The notes beneath the pieces are model-generated. The model was given only the letters and a program-made list of their open reading frames with translations, had not been told where the DNA came from and ran no database searches. From Rhodobacteraceae bacterium HLUCCO07 (lineage in GTDB: Bacteria > Pseudomonadota > Alphaproteobacteria > Rhodobacterales > Rhodobacteraceae), in NCBI GenBank assembly GCA_001314705.1, contig LJSU01000035.1, positions 37,112 through 101,111 of the forward strand: 64,000 nucleotides of DNA. Direction: 5' to 3'. A program made the position numbers and the translations under genes. Position 1 is the stretch's first letter; each line of letters begins with the position of its first letter. This document shows positions 28,265 through 32,394 of this stretch, in pieces.

Positions 28265-29413
28265 TCAGGCGAAATAGTCGGTGAGAATCCGTGTATAGAT
28301 CGCCTTGAGCTGCTCGATCTGTGCCGTGGGCACATGCTCATCGACCTGGTGCATGGTCTTGCCGACCAGCCCGAACTCCACCACCGGGCAATGATCCTTG
28401 ACGAACCGCGCATCCGACGTTCCTCCGGATGTCGAAAGAACCGGGGTCCGCCCGGTCTCCGCCTCCACCGCCCGCGTCACCAGATCCGAGAGCGGCCCGG
28501 GGGGCGTGAGGAAGCTCTCACCCGAAATTTTCACTTTCAATTCAATGCCCACGCCGAATTCTGTCGCTGCGCGATCGGCCTCTTCCTCAAGCCAGCGCGA
28601 CAGGGATGCGCCCGAATGCAGGTCGTTGAAGCGGATGTTGACGGCGGCGGTGCATTCGGCCGGGATCACGTTGGTGGCGGGGTTGCCCGTGTCCATCGTC
28701 ACCACCGCCAGTGTCGAGGCATCGAAATGTTCGCTGCCCTCGTCCAGCTCATGGCTGGCCAGCCGGTCAATGAGCCGCGCCAGCGCGGGCAGGGGGTTCT
28801 TCGCCCGGTGCGGATAGGCGGAATGCCCCTGTATCCCCGTCACCCGAAACCACCCCGTCATCGACCCCCGCCGCCCGATCTTGATCATATCGCCCATGTT
28901 TTCAGGGCAAGTGGGCTCCCCCACAAGGCAGGCCGACATCGCTTCGCCGGTCTCTTCCATCCAGTCGAGCAGTGCGGTGGTGCCGTCCACGGCGTCGCCC
29001 TCTTCATCGCCGGTGATGGCCAGAACAACCGAGCCGTCGGGCGGGGTGGTGCGGACGAAATCCACCGCGGCGGCAACAAAGGCGGCGACGCCCGATTTCA
29101 TGTCGGTCGCGCCACGCCCCCAGAGGACACCGTTTTCCAGGTCGCCCGAGAAGGGCGCGTGGGTCCATGCCGCCACGTCGCCCGGTGGCACGACATCGGT
29201 ATGGCCGTTGAAGCCGAAGGTTCGGACATGGCCTTTGGCCCCCCATCTGGCGAAGAGATTGGCCACCCCGCCGCGATCCACGCGGGTGCAGTCAAAACCC
29301 GCCTTGCTCAGCAATGCCTCGAGGAGCACGAGCGCACCGCCCTCCTCGGGGGTGACGGATTTGCAGCGGATGAGGCTTTGGGTCAGGTGGATGGGGTCGA
29401 GCTGTTGGGTCAT
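28265..29413 (-). CDS. dapE: Succinyl-diaminopimelate desuccinylase
   Basis: Zn-dependent amidohydrolase of the M20 family that removes succinate from N-succinyl-LL-DAP in lysine and peptidoglycan synthesis. 382 aa. Seen: [13 protein letters not shown] (metal His and Asp), [11 protein letters not shown] (bridging Asp), ITGDEEGDA (catalytic Glu pair), [17 protein letters not shown] and the terminal His in [10 protein letters not shown]. The start [10 protein letters not shown] at 29413 fits the family; the ribosome-binding site is weak. Shares its pathway with dapA at 7596. Confidence 0.95.
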
Positions 29414-29713
29414 GAGGCAAGCCTGATTTTCGACAACTTTTGCGCAAGCCTTAAACCGGACCATTCCCGGGTGCAAATGTGGCGGAAATGACGCTTTGGG
29501 TGGAGCCTAGTGGAAGTTATGCGAAATGAGGAGCTTAACAGGTCCAATTGTTCCGTGTTATACTGAATTTAACAATAAACCGAGGCAGGTTGCGGCAAGA
29601 GGGCATAAACGCCCCGCCGAGCAGGAATGAACAGTGCTGACCCTTGATTGGGGTCGCGCTGTATCGTGACTGAAATGGATGGCCTGCCTCAGAATAAGCG
29701 AGGTGAGCAGGTC
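29414..29713. other. 300-bp leader between dapE and the Hint genes
   Basis: Divergent regulatory gap, clearly more A/T-rich than the surrounding genes around 29510-29600. Contains the promoter described at 29535. The stretch 29600-29700 shows no gene or repeat that can be supported, although an in-frame upstream ATG (29675) could extend the Hint protein by 13 residues. Confidence 0.5.
29535..29564 (+). promoter_or_regulatory. Candidate sigma-70 promoter for the Hint-gene pair
   Basis: TTAACA (-35, five of six) and TATACT (-10, five of six) with 18 nt between. Transcription would begin near 29572, giving a leader of about 140 nt to the start at 29714. The best promoter match seen in the window. 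Confidence 0.55.
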
Positions 29714-31327
29714 ATGGTTGCGGCGTCCGAGCTTCCGATCAACACCAATGCATCCGCCATGCAGATGGCGCAGAAAATCTTTGGCGACGGTGCCACGGTC
29801 GTGAATGCTTCTTACACTGGCGACTGGCGGTCGTCGGGCATCTATTCGGAAGGTGACACGGTCTCGCCCGACGTGACGCCCGGGGATGAGGGTGTGATCC
29901 TCTCGACGGGGCGGGCGGAGGATTTCACCAATGCGGCGGGAACGCGCCCGTGGTGGCAGGGTGGAGGACCCACTGAAGCGAACCAGAGCACGAACACCTC
30001 GACCGACACGAGCGGTCCAAACGACAACAGTTGGTTCAACGAGGCCGCGGGCGCGCGAACTTATGATGCGTCGTGGCTGGATGTGGATTTCGTTCCTGAC
30101 GGGGACACGATGACGATGCAGTTCGTCTTTTCCTCGGACGAGTTTCCTGAATATTCCAATTCGCAGTTTCAGGATTTCGTGGGGGTCTGGGTGAATGGCG
30201 TTCTTGTAGAAACTGCGGTCGGGGCGGCCAACCCGGGCAACCTTGTCGGCGGGATCAACCAGAATCTCTACAACGACAATACCCAGAGCCAACACAACAC
30301 CGAGATGGATGGGTTCACCGTCACCATGACGCTGACCACGCCAGTCACGGCAGACGAGGTGAACTCGATTCGGATCGGGATCGCGGATGTCGGGGATTCA
30401 TCTTATGATTCCAATCTGCTGATTGCTGGTGGTTCGGTGCAAACTGCCCTTATTGCCAATGATGACATGGCTCACCTGACAGGAGATCAGACCAAGACAC
30501 TGGACGTTCTGGCCAATGACGAGAACGCTGCCGGCGGCACCTTGTCAATTACACATATCAACGGGAATTCGGTCGGAGCGGGTGATACGGTCACGCTCAA
30601 CACGGGCCAGACTGTAACACTCAATGCGAACGGAAAGATAACGCTGGTCGGAGATGGCGACGACGAAGACTTCAATTTTACCTACACGGCAACCAATGGG
30701 ACGGAGGATGACACCGGGTTCGTTCTGGTCGAGTCGGTGCCCTGTTTCGTGGCAGGCACGCGCATCGAGACCGTCGATGGCCCACGCCAAGTCGAGTTTC
30801 TCGAACCTGGTGAACTAGTGTTGACGCAAGACCACGGCCCGCAGCCCTTGCGCTGGATAGGGCGCCGCCGGGTTGAGGCCAAAGGCAAGTTCGCGCCGAT
30901 CTATATCGCGCCCAACACGTTCGGGCAGCATGGTGCGGTGGCGGTGTCGCCGCTGCATCGGATTCTTGTGCGTGATTGCGTTTCCGAATTGTTGTTTGGC
31001 GAGGCCGAAGTTCTCGTTGCCGCGCGTGATCTCGTCAATGATCGAACGGTGCGCCCGGTCTATGGTGGCTCGGTCGAATATCTGCATCTTCTGTTTGACG
31101 ATCATCAGGTGGTTTATTCCGACGGGCTTGCGAGCGAAAGTTTTCATCCCGGCCCGCAAACGTCGCGTAGCCTCGAAGCCGAAATGGTCGCGGAGATTCA
31201 TGCACTTTTCCCCGAGATGGATCCTGTGACGGGAGCTGGATATGGCCCCAGTGCGCGCCCGGCCTTGCGCCGTTTCGAGGCCGAGCTTCTCACCCGAATG
31301 GGTGCTGCATCCGGCCGGGTCGCATGA
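29714..31327 (+). CDS. Secreted-type protein with choice-of-anchor L, VCBS/cadherin-like and Hint domains
   Basis: 537 aa. Residues 1-240 form a choice-of-anchor L-type domain (ELPINTNASAMQMAQKIFGD, SSGIYSEGDTVSPDVTPGD, GVILSTGRAEDFTN, QFVFSSDEFPEY). About 240-340 are a bacterial Ig/cadherin-like repeat (LDVLANDENAAGG, ITLVGDGDDEDFNFTYTATN). About 341-480 are a Hint_2 module, with the nucleophile Cys344 in VPCFVAGTRI and the block-B His415 in VSPLHRIL, then HQVVYSDGLASESFHPG. There is no N-terminal signal peptide, as in type I-secreted proteins. Hint domains cleave a peptide bond at their Cys; here only about 55 residues follow the module. Start set by GAGGTGAG upstream. Base composition is lower in GC than its neighbours. 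Confidence 0.8.
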   Translation: MVAASELPINTNASAMQMAQKIFGDGATVVNASYTGDWRSSGIYSEGDTVSPDVTPGDEGVILSTGRAEDFTNAAGTRPWWQGGGPTEANQSTNTSTDTSGPNDNSWFNEAAGARTYDASWLDVDFVPDGDTMTMQFVFSSDEFPEYSNSQFQDFVGVWVNGVLVETAVGAANPGNLVGGINQNLYNDNTQSQHNTEMDGFTVTMTLTTPVTADEVNSIRIGIADVGDSSYDSNLLIAGGSVQTALIANDDMAHLTGDQTKTLDVLANDENAAGGTLSITHINGNSVGAGDTVTLNTGQTVTLNANGKITLVGDGDDEDFNFTYTATNGTEDDTGFVLVESVPCFVAGTRIETVDGPRQVEFLEPGELVLTQDHGPQPLRWIGRRRVEAKGKFAPIYIAPNTFGQHGAVAVSPLHRILVRDCVSELLFGEAEVLVAARDLVNDRTVRPVYGGSVEYLHLLFDDHQVVYSDGLASESFHPGPQTSRSLEAEMVAEIHALFPEMDPVTGAGYGPSARPALRRFEAELLTRMGAASGRVA

Positions 31328-32394
31328 GGCCGTCCATGGGGTGGTTTGCGATCGCAGACAGCGAAACGACGAATTTTCGCGCGCCACGAGGCGGGCGGGA
31401 TGGACCATTGCCTCGCGGCACATTGATGATCGAAACTCGTCTGTCGCCAGATGGCAGGCCGCAAACCCTTCTGGCCTTTGAAAGCTATCATTGTGGAGAC
31501 TTCAAGCTTTCGGTGCAGGCGATCCCGGGGGGGGGCGTGGTGCTGGTCATGGCAGAGAATGGCGAGGCGTTCCACGCGACGCTTGATCACGATGCACAGG
31601 ACCGCGCAGACCTTCTGCGCATCAGCTATAGCTGGGATCTGATGCTGGGCAGTGGACGGTTGGCGATCGAGCGGCCGGAACACGGCAAGATGGTCAAACT
31701 CATGCTGGAGCGGCCACGCGCCATGCGAGTCGCGGATGTGCATGCGATGACGCGGGAGCCGGGGCGTCGTCTGATGGATCGGGATGTCGAGTTCTTTGCC
31801 GTTTCCGACCGGGTTGAACCCGTCGGACCGACCCCGAGCCTTGGTGGTGATGTGCCTGTCCTCGGGTCAGATCGCTATGTATCGGTAGGGGATCTGCGGC
31901 GCGGGGATCTGGTCGAGACCTTGGAGGCCGGTCTCGTGCCGGTCCTGCACGCGGTGCGGCGCACCGTGCCGGCACGTGGATCGTTCCGCCCCGTGCGGCT
32001 GCGCGCACCGTATTTCGGCTTGCGCCACGACATCGTTGTGGCCCCGGACCAGCGGTTGGTCGTGGGCGGGCCAGAGGTCGAGTATATCTTTGGCCGCGAG
32101 GCGGTCTTGGTACCGGCGCGGCATCTGGTCAACGGGATTTCTGCAATCAGTCTCAGTGGGCCGCCAACCGTGACCTATTGCCAGGTGATCCTGCCGCGGC
32201 ACGAATCCATGATTGGTGCCGGCTGTCCGATCGAGAGCCTCTACATCGGAAGGTTGCGGCGCAAGCCCGCGCAATTGGCGCAGAGTGTATTGGCGGAGAT
32301 CGACCGCACGTTGCTGCCGGAGCATTCCAAATCGAGCTATCCGATGCTGCGACCCTTCGAAGCTGTCACGCTGATGCAGCAACGCGCCGCATGA
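31324..32394 (+). CDS. Hint-like domain protein with degenerate active site
   Basis: 356 aa, overlapping the preceding Hint gene as ATGA. Residues about 30-125 look like an all-beta, LamG/concanavalin-like domain (GTLMIETRLSPDGRPQTLLAF, LRISYSWDLMLGSGRLAIER). About 175-315 align with the Hint_2 module of the neighbour: VPVLGSDRYVSVGDLRRGD, FRPVRLRAPYFGLRHDIVV, VTYCQVILPRHESMIGAG and IESLYIGRL. The Cys position is Val179 and the block-B His is Gln243, so self-cleavage by the usual route is not expected. Possible roles are an accessory or immunity-like partner, or a structural relative; not known. Confidence 0.72.
   Translation: MRPSMGWFAIADSETTNFRAPRGGRDGPLPRGTLMIETRLSPDGRPQTLLAFESYHCGDFKLSVQAIPGGGVVLVMAENGEAFHATLDHDAQDRADLLRISYSWDLMLGSGRLAIERPEHGKMVKLMLERPRAMRVADVHAMTREPGRRLMDRDVEFFAVSDRVEPVGPTPSLGGDVPVLGSDRYVSVGDLRRGDLVETLEAGLVPVLHAVRRTVPARGSFRPVRLRAPYFGLRHDIVVAPDQRLVVGGPEVEYIFGREAVLVPARHLVNGISAISLSGPPTVTYCQVILPRHESMIGAGCPIESLYIGRLRRKPAQLAQSVLAEIDRTLLPEHSKSSYPMLRPFEAVTLMQQRAA

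Follow-up and report, generated by a model that had tools for sequence, protein, structure and literature searches.

A conserved pseudo-Hint protein encoded next to an intact Hint_2 protein near a dapE-like gene in Rhodobacteraceae

Hint domains are known for self-cleavage. In a stretch of 64,000 nucleotides from the marine Rhodobacteraceae bacterium HLUCCO07 (contig LJSU01000035.1; the whole stretch is called the window here, and positions are counted from its first letter), two overlapping genes encode P1, a protein with an intact Hint_2 domain, and P2, in which a lectin-like domain is followed by a Hint_2 domain that has the fold and lacks the catalytic residues. P2 represents a conserved pseudo-Hint family with long open frames, and its dead domain is under purifying selection. 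The pair is a real and somewhat unusual feature of the family. Our tentative reading, which may well be correct although we stop short of calling it probable, is that P1 and P2 are two members of a surface or secreted Hint_2 set, P1 being self-processing and P2 a permanently uncleaved lectin-Hint protein.

Catalytic residues and predicted folds of P1 and P2

The two open reading frames (ORFs) and their ATGA overlap, described in an earlier note made from the letters of the window alone, are confirmed. The features of the pair, all on the + strand, are as follows (aa, amino acids; E, expect value; A2 and A3, alignments defined below).

29714..31327, +: P1 gene, 537 aa; choice-of-anchor L, Ig-like and intact Hint_2 domains
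29762..30439, +: P1 choice-of-anchor L domain, aa 17-242 (NF038133, E 4.7e-42)
30449..30739, +: P1 Ig-like domain, aa 246-342 (borderline Big_9; VIA-align to FrhA and MpAFP entries)
30740..31153, +: P1 Hint_2 domain, aa 343-480 (PF13403, E 1.7e-46; intein/BIL/Hedgehog fold)
30743..30745, +: P1 Cys344, Hint nucleophile position (Cys in 52/53 rows of A3, Tyr in one)
30956..30958, +: P1 His415, block-B His of SxxH (His in 53/53 rows of A3)
31085..31087, +: P1 His458, His of YxHL (His in 53/53 rows of A3)
31324..31327, +: ATGA overlap of the P1 stop and P2 start
31324..32394, +: P2 gene, 356 aa; lectin-like domain and pseudo-Hint
31336..31827, +: P2 N-terminal lectin-like sandwich, aa 5-168 (VIA-align to CBM40)
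31837..32253, +: P2 pseudo-Hint domain, aa 172-310 (PF13403, E 8.4e-28; Z 14.2 to a BIL domain)
31837..31839, +: P2 Ser172, place of the catalytic Cys (structure superposition; 88-sequence alignment)
32050..32052, +: P2 Gln243, place of the block-B His, P1 His415 (Gln in 70/70 rows of A2 and 64/88 of set B)
32182..32184, +: P2 Gln287, place of P1 His458 (A2: Q39 H27 N3 G1)
32254..32391, +: P2 C-terminal tail, aa 311-356, aligned with the P1 tail

Relatives were collected in two sets. For set B, a P2 protein search of 198 family genomes (one per genus) matched 171 of them at E ≤ 1e-3, many via other Hint_2 proteins; 89 loci were fetched, mainly long-coverage choices among the matches listed, and with L090 (scored as lacking P2) and L101 (a duplicate of L098) dropped, the final set is 88 loci including the window, two of which come from one genome (G060). 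Set A consists of 80 named loci, the best 80 of 364 relatives found with a 34-sequence alignment as query, among which the nearest match is from Aquicoccus porphyridii (87% identity). Alignment A2 joins the window P2 to 69 of the 80 set A P2 sequences (70 rows), and A3 the window P1 to 52 of the 67 set A P1 sequences (53 rows). The set A search used three patterns, one requiring T, S or G where P2 has residue 172 and another GRxRR, and A2 is biased at both places because the patterns asked for them; Gln243 lay outside the patterns.

P1 scores 158.7 bits against the curated PF13403 cut-off of 28.4, and the Cys344 and His415 assigned to its Hint domain by the earlier note are both present. Ser412 is kept in 53/53 rows of A3, and among the 57 set B P1 sequences aligned with the 88 P2 proteins Cys occupies position 344 in 53 of the 54 lettered rows and Ser412 and His415 are found in 55/55. 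P1 thus carries the residue pattern of a self-processing Hint domain, a block-A nucleophile and T/SxxH in block B. In its AlphaFold model (mean predicted local distance difference test score, pLDDT, 75.6) the Hint domain from residue 344 has an intein/BIL/Hedgehog fold, with Z up to 14.0. The single Tyr for Cys belongs to Marimonas lutisalis (L103 / L154), where the P1 His and P2 are kept; this P1 Hint is probably a second dead Hint within the same pair.

P2 scores 98 bits against the same PF13403 cut-off over aa 185-309, so a profile search does find Hint similarity in it. Hint_2 is its sole Pfam match, with nothing in NCBIfam at E ≤ 1, and the match enters the profile at position 15, leaving the Cys block outside. 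By pairwise BLAST, residues 190-356 align to the end of P1, and within the tail Leu350 and Ala356 are found in 70/70 rows of A2. The AlphaFold model of P2 (mean pLDDT 92.6, predicted template modelling score 0.91) has two domains, at about 5-168 and 168-310 by Foldseek and VIA-align. The second takes the BIL/intein/Hedgehog fold, closest to 6y75 (Z 14.2, root-mean-square deviation (rmsd) 2.5, 125 residues). Its residue 172 is the first to align with residue 1 of the inteins 6riy and 6bs8 and with residue 258 of Hedgehog 1at0, the same nucleophile position at which residue 344 of the P1 model sits in superposition. Of the counterparts proposed in the earlier note Gln243 is right, but Cys344 corresponds to Ser172 and not to Val179, because both the alignment of 88 P2 with 57 P1 sequences and the structure superposition place it there.

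None of these positions is kept in catalytic form across the P2 family. At the place of residue 172 set B has G33 T24 S14 W7 A5 C4 L1 (n=88) and A2, a set found partly by its T/S/G pattern, has S24 G24 T14 A8 (n=70), leaving no conserved block-A nucleophile. The block-B His, replaced throughout A2, survives in 13 of the 88 set B proteins (Q64 H13 T4 L3 A3 E1). The place of P1 His458 holds Gln in 55 and His in 12 of the 88, and Ser412 of P1 corresponds to Ala240. No cysteine column exceeds 26/70 rows of A2, and the alternative conserved Cys of a class 3 intein was not found in these 70 rows. Cys and His are retained together in only 2/88 P2 proteins (L067 and L070). As the earlier note had suggested, P2 is Hint-like and very probably not a second self-processing protein. 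The proteins L067 and L070 for their part lack the third His and the SxxH Ser, and they cluster with P2 proteins having no such Cys/His.

The fold common to P1 and P2 is that of the Hedgehog autoprocessing domain 1at0 and the BIL domains 2lwy and 6y75 (Z 11.3-14.2), with Cys344 and Ser172 at the nucleophile position; P2 differs from these in having neither a family-conserved nucleophile nor the block-B His. The likeness to Hedgehog is one of fold. Both proteins score above the Hint_2 cut-off; among the Hint_2 proteins of Rhodobacteraceae P1 is typical, and P2 stands apart in having neither the Cys block nor a block-B His.

The N-terminal part of P1 is a choice-of-anchor L domain, as proposed earlier, at 143.9 bits against the NF038133 cut-off of 27. 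The cadherin-like domain assigned to P1 stands in part: Big_9 (aa 246-335) is borderline in Pfam, at 23.6 bits for a cut-off of 23.6, but the model of residues 246-342 aligns with a domain present in the FrhA and MpAFP entries (VIA-align Z 10.2-11.3). Phage collar proteins also align to this segment (Z 8.1-8.8). FrhA and MpAFP are large RTX adhesins; P1 differs from them in being short, in its lack of RTX repeats by Pfam and in the Hint_2 domain at its end.

Chromosomal place, pairing and selection

The gene divergent from the pair is the marker of the locus.

28265..29476, −: dapE-like gene (called dapE here), divergent neighbour, scored by tblastn

In fetched flanks of about 5-6 kb, and regardless of orientation, a dapE-like match accompanies 87/87 and 78/80 P2 loci; one of the two exceptions (L226) ends at a contig edge. 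The match is present in the flank of all 30 P2 loci that have no P1 upstream (below), and in three of these (G110, G137 and G148) P2 is directly beside dapE by coordinates. Other window neighbours are rarely kept (RluA-like in 5/80 and 3/87, aroC-like in 1/80 and 0/87). No convincing conserved third gene was seen within the fetched flanks, where one count was blurred by antisense ORFs, and about 6 kb upstream of 20 chosen dapE loci from genomes not listed for P1 or P2 gave no match to P1, P2 or a P2 N-domain profile. The dapE synteny therefore indicates a stable position on the chromosome at which genes were gained or lost, and not a fresh acquisition.

This goes against the suggestion that the pair is an acquired system. 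The lower G+C content (GC) of P1 noticed earlier is real, 0.585 being the lowest among the whole genes compared, and its GC at third codon positions (GC3; P1 0.669, P2 0.717) is below that of seven of nine nearby genes yet inside their range of 0.640-0.876. With GC3 inside that range and dapE alongside, an acquired island by GC was rejected. Between 28000 and 41000 in the window the GC skew changes sign repeatedly: to 29 kb it is near zero or negative, over 29-34 kb positive, over 34-40 kb slightly negative and beyond 40 kb positive again. Gene strand or replication may underlie this pattern.

In 57/88 set B loci P1 is encoded immediately upstream of P2, in the same orientation and less than 300 bases away, and a further locus with an estimated gap of 420 bases (L102) raises this to 58; the largest gap within the 57 pairs is 405. 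In set A the script scored 68/80 pairs, or 69/80 with L214, whose P2 start was mis-set, counted by hand. With start codons as assigned by the script, the gap is within 10 bases in 37/57 (set B) and 63/68 (set A) pairs, and the 4-base overlap of the window recurs in 16/57 and 7/68. On a P1 tree with 83 rows, of which 59 are paired and 24 have no downstream P2 (proteins under 480 aa being excluded), the paired/solo label needs only 4 changes, compared with a shuffled mean of 21. Among 20 further, seemingly unpaired P1 loci, four (L133, L140, L145 and L146) have a divergent P2 downstream.

Either gene also occurs without the other. No P1 was found within 500 bases upstream in 30/88 set B P2 loci, which come from 29 genomes. 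A P1-type match at E ≤ 1e-60 is missing from as many as 24 of these genomes, an upper figure because at most seven candidates were scored in each and some genomes are incomplete (G068 76%, G118 84%). In two others (G111 and G121) the P1-type match is limited to the N-terminal part, and in three (G027, G053 and G082) a full-length P1-type paralogue is encoded downstream or at another site. The pair/solo label is scattered over the P2 tree (23 changes, shuffled mean 25.3, with 87/500 shuffles as low). Conversely, P1 stands beside dapE with no P2 downstream in G081, G116 and G158.

Two further arrangements were seen at these loci. In genome G009 (L107) P1 and P2 are each split across two frames, from the sequence a case of either sequencing error or recent loss. 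Eight loci (L044, L054, L064, L124, L125, L128, L129 and L130) have a second P1-type protein about 0.4-2.9 kb 3' of P2, in some of them, by eye, separated from it by a solute-binding-like gene together with a small gene on the reverse strand.

Purifying selection acts on the dead Hint domain of P2. Ratios of nonsynonymous to synonymous substitution (dN/dS) of the window against L152, L153 and L154 were, in that order, 0.047, 0.062 and 0.119 for the pseudo-Hint, 0.122, 0.117 and 0.199 for the P2 N-domain, 0.043, 0.062 and 0.263 for the P2 tail and 0.065, 0.072 and 0.099 for the P1 Hint; these are rough values from a simple Nei-Gojobori count, with dS mostly around 1 or above.

Over 53 loci the P1 and P2 distances correlate (0.595; partial r 0.509 given dapE), with 0/500 permutations as high. 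Distances of the P1 Hint domain alone correlate with no partner tested, its own anchor domain included, and with P2 give a partial r of -0.01 to 0.06. With the P1 Hint uncorrelated to all of these partners, a reading of covariation at domain level is unsafe, and the weak P1 Hint correlation is better taken as a lack of signal; the proposal that P2 covaries with the anchor domain and not with the Hint was dropped on this ground. As another source of the weak correlation, gene conversion of P1 with its paralogues was looked for and not seen, the nearest Hint to that of a paired P1 coming from a solo P1 in 0/59 cases. A C-terminal Ala ends P2 in 70/70 rows (A2), P1 in 52/53 (A3) and 65/88 of the wider P2 set; given this last figure and 43/53 for dapE (aligned segments, a rough control), its conservation as an export signal was rejected.

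Genome context and possible roles of P2

The genome of the window contains 12 Hint_2 matches. Inspected by eye, seven keep Cys and SxxH, one (L008) carries Ser instead of the Cys and four (L009, P2, L011 and L012) are partly or wholly degenerate, so a dead Hint_2 is not unique to this pair; the N-terminal parts of L009, L011 and L012 differ. Three Hint_2 ORFs of the genome (on C11, C13 and C26) carry RTX repeats, and it encodes a PrtD-type type I secretion system ATPase (TIGR01842, over cut-off). By-eye inspection of P1 saw no signal peptide, and the type I secretion proposed in the earlier note would be plausible for this pair. In the family at large 173/198 sampled genomes have a Hint_2 match. 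One study counts PF13403 among the functional units that are enriched in marine bacteria of fast growth, and describes Hint as overrepresented in responsive Rhodobacteraceae (PMC12487129). Searches of open-licence papers found no description of the P1/P2 feature, no paper mentioning choice-of-anchor L and, judged by title and abstract, none bearing on inactive or degenerate Hint domains.

We suggest that P1 and P2 have long formed an operon near dapE in Rhodobacteraceae, passed on for the most part vertically, and that both may be exported or surface proteins with a common Hint_2 C-terminal module. P1 would be the processing member, its Hint cleaving at Cys344 and so freeing or re-attaching the choice-of-anchor L/adhesin-like part. 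P2 would be a pseudoenzyme that kept the Hint fold and tail; since its Cys and both His are replaced, the lectin-like N-domain would stay joined to the Hint/tail module. It may then act, uncleaved, as a sugar-binding protein of the surface or matrix, with the dead module serving retention or targeting. The replaced catalytic positions within a Hint fold, the purifying selection on the dead domain, the lectin-like N-terminal fold, the likeness of the P1 Ig-like domain to FrhA and MpAFP, the persistence of P2 near dapE with or without P1, the 24 P2 genomes with no P1-type match, the secretion ATPase and the RTX repeats in other Hint_2 ORFs all favour this reading.

Several points weigh against it. 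By Pfam, RTX repeats (PF00353) are absent from both P1 and P2. The P2 sandwich is concanavalin-like and aligns best with sialidase CBM40 modules (Z up to 11.9, rmsd 3.5 over 143 residues), at 13% identity and with no Pfam match at E ≤ 1, but other proteins of this common fold come nearly as close, including laminin G and clostridial neurotoxin receptor-binding domains (Z 10.3-10.5). Matches to such diverse proteins therefore indicate a common fold and not a function, and a sugar ligand is a guess. Glu37, Arg99 and Trp104 are invariant in the 70 rows of A2; in a wider set of 29 P2 sequences only Trp7, Gly32 and Trp104 are, the invariance of Arg99 being lost, and a sialic-acid-type site in this domain is a candidate feature. 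Finally, the tight operon and the P1-P2 correlation beyond dapE would also fit a dedicated partner of P1.

On this alternative, which we think rather unlikely, P2 would serve P1 as a regulator, chaperone, decoy or acceptor, its dead Hint binding P1 and either controlling P1 processing or being the recipient of it. Adjacency and near-zero spacing in both sets, the few label changes on the P1 tree and the distance correlation argue for it, whereas the solo P2 loci, the genomes apparently without P1 and the P1 genes beside dapE with no P2 downstream argue against it. The absence of any correlation between P2 and the P1 Hint also counts against it, as a weak test. The suggestion in the earlier note that P2 is a partner, regulator or decoy of P1 is therefore weakly supported, and a role as decoy or regulator is possible but not well supported. 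Alternatively, P1 and P2 may be functionally unrelated neighbours that have a module and transcription in common within a stable locus; the occurrence of either gene without the other fits this, but the tight spacing and the distance correlation do not, and we consider it unlikely.

P2 might still be catalytic through Ser/Thr172 or another nucleophile. Ser or Thr stands at this place in 38/88 set B and 38/70 A2 proteins, Cys and His are both retained in L067 and L070, and some inteins do lack the first nucleophile, those of class 3 using a conserved alternative Cys, as PMC7664689 describes. With Gly, Ala, Trp, Leu or Cys in the other 50/88, Gln243 invariant in A2 and no conserved cysteine column, we regard this as improbable. 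More speculative still, and very improbable in our view, P2 could be the acceptor or receptor of the P1 Hint reaction: the dead Hint would dock on P1, and the thioester would pass the anchor-L part to P2 or to a lectin-held glycan, giving Hedgehog-like covalent surface attachment by an active/dead couple. That P2 is a functionless decaying duplicate, as the missing catalytic residues and the split genes of G009 might suggest, is scarcely credible given the purifying selection on its dead domain, long open frames across the family and a confidently predicted fold.

A widely conserved, lectin-joined pseudo-Hint near dapE, often beside an intact Hint, suggests that the fold can be retained for binding or targeting alone. 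As a natural pair of intact and dead Hint domains, P1 and P2 offer a test case for the many uncharacterised Hint_2 proteins of Rhodobacteraceae.

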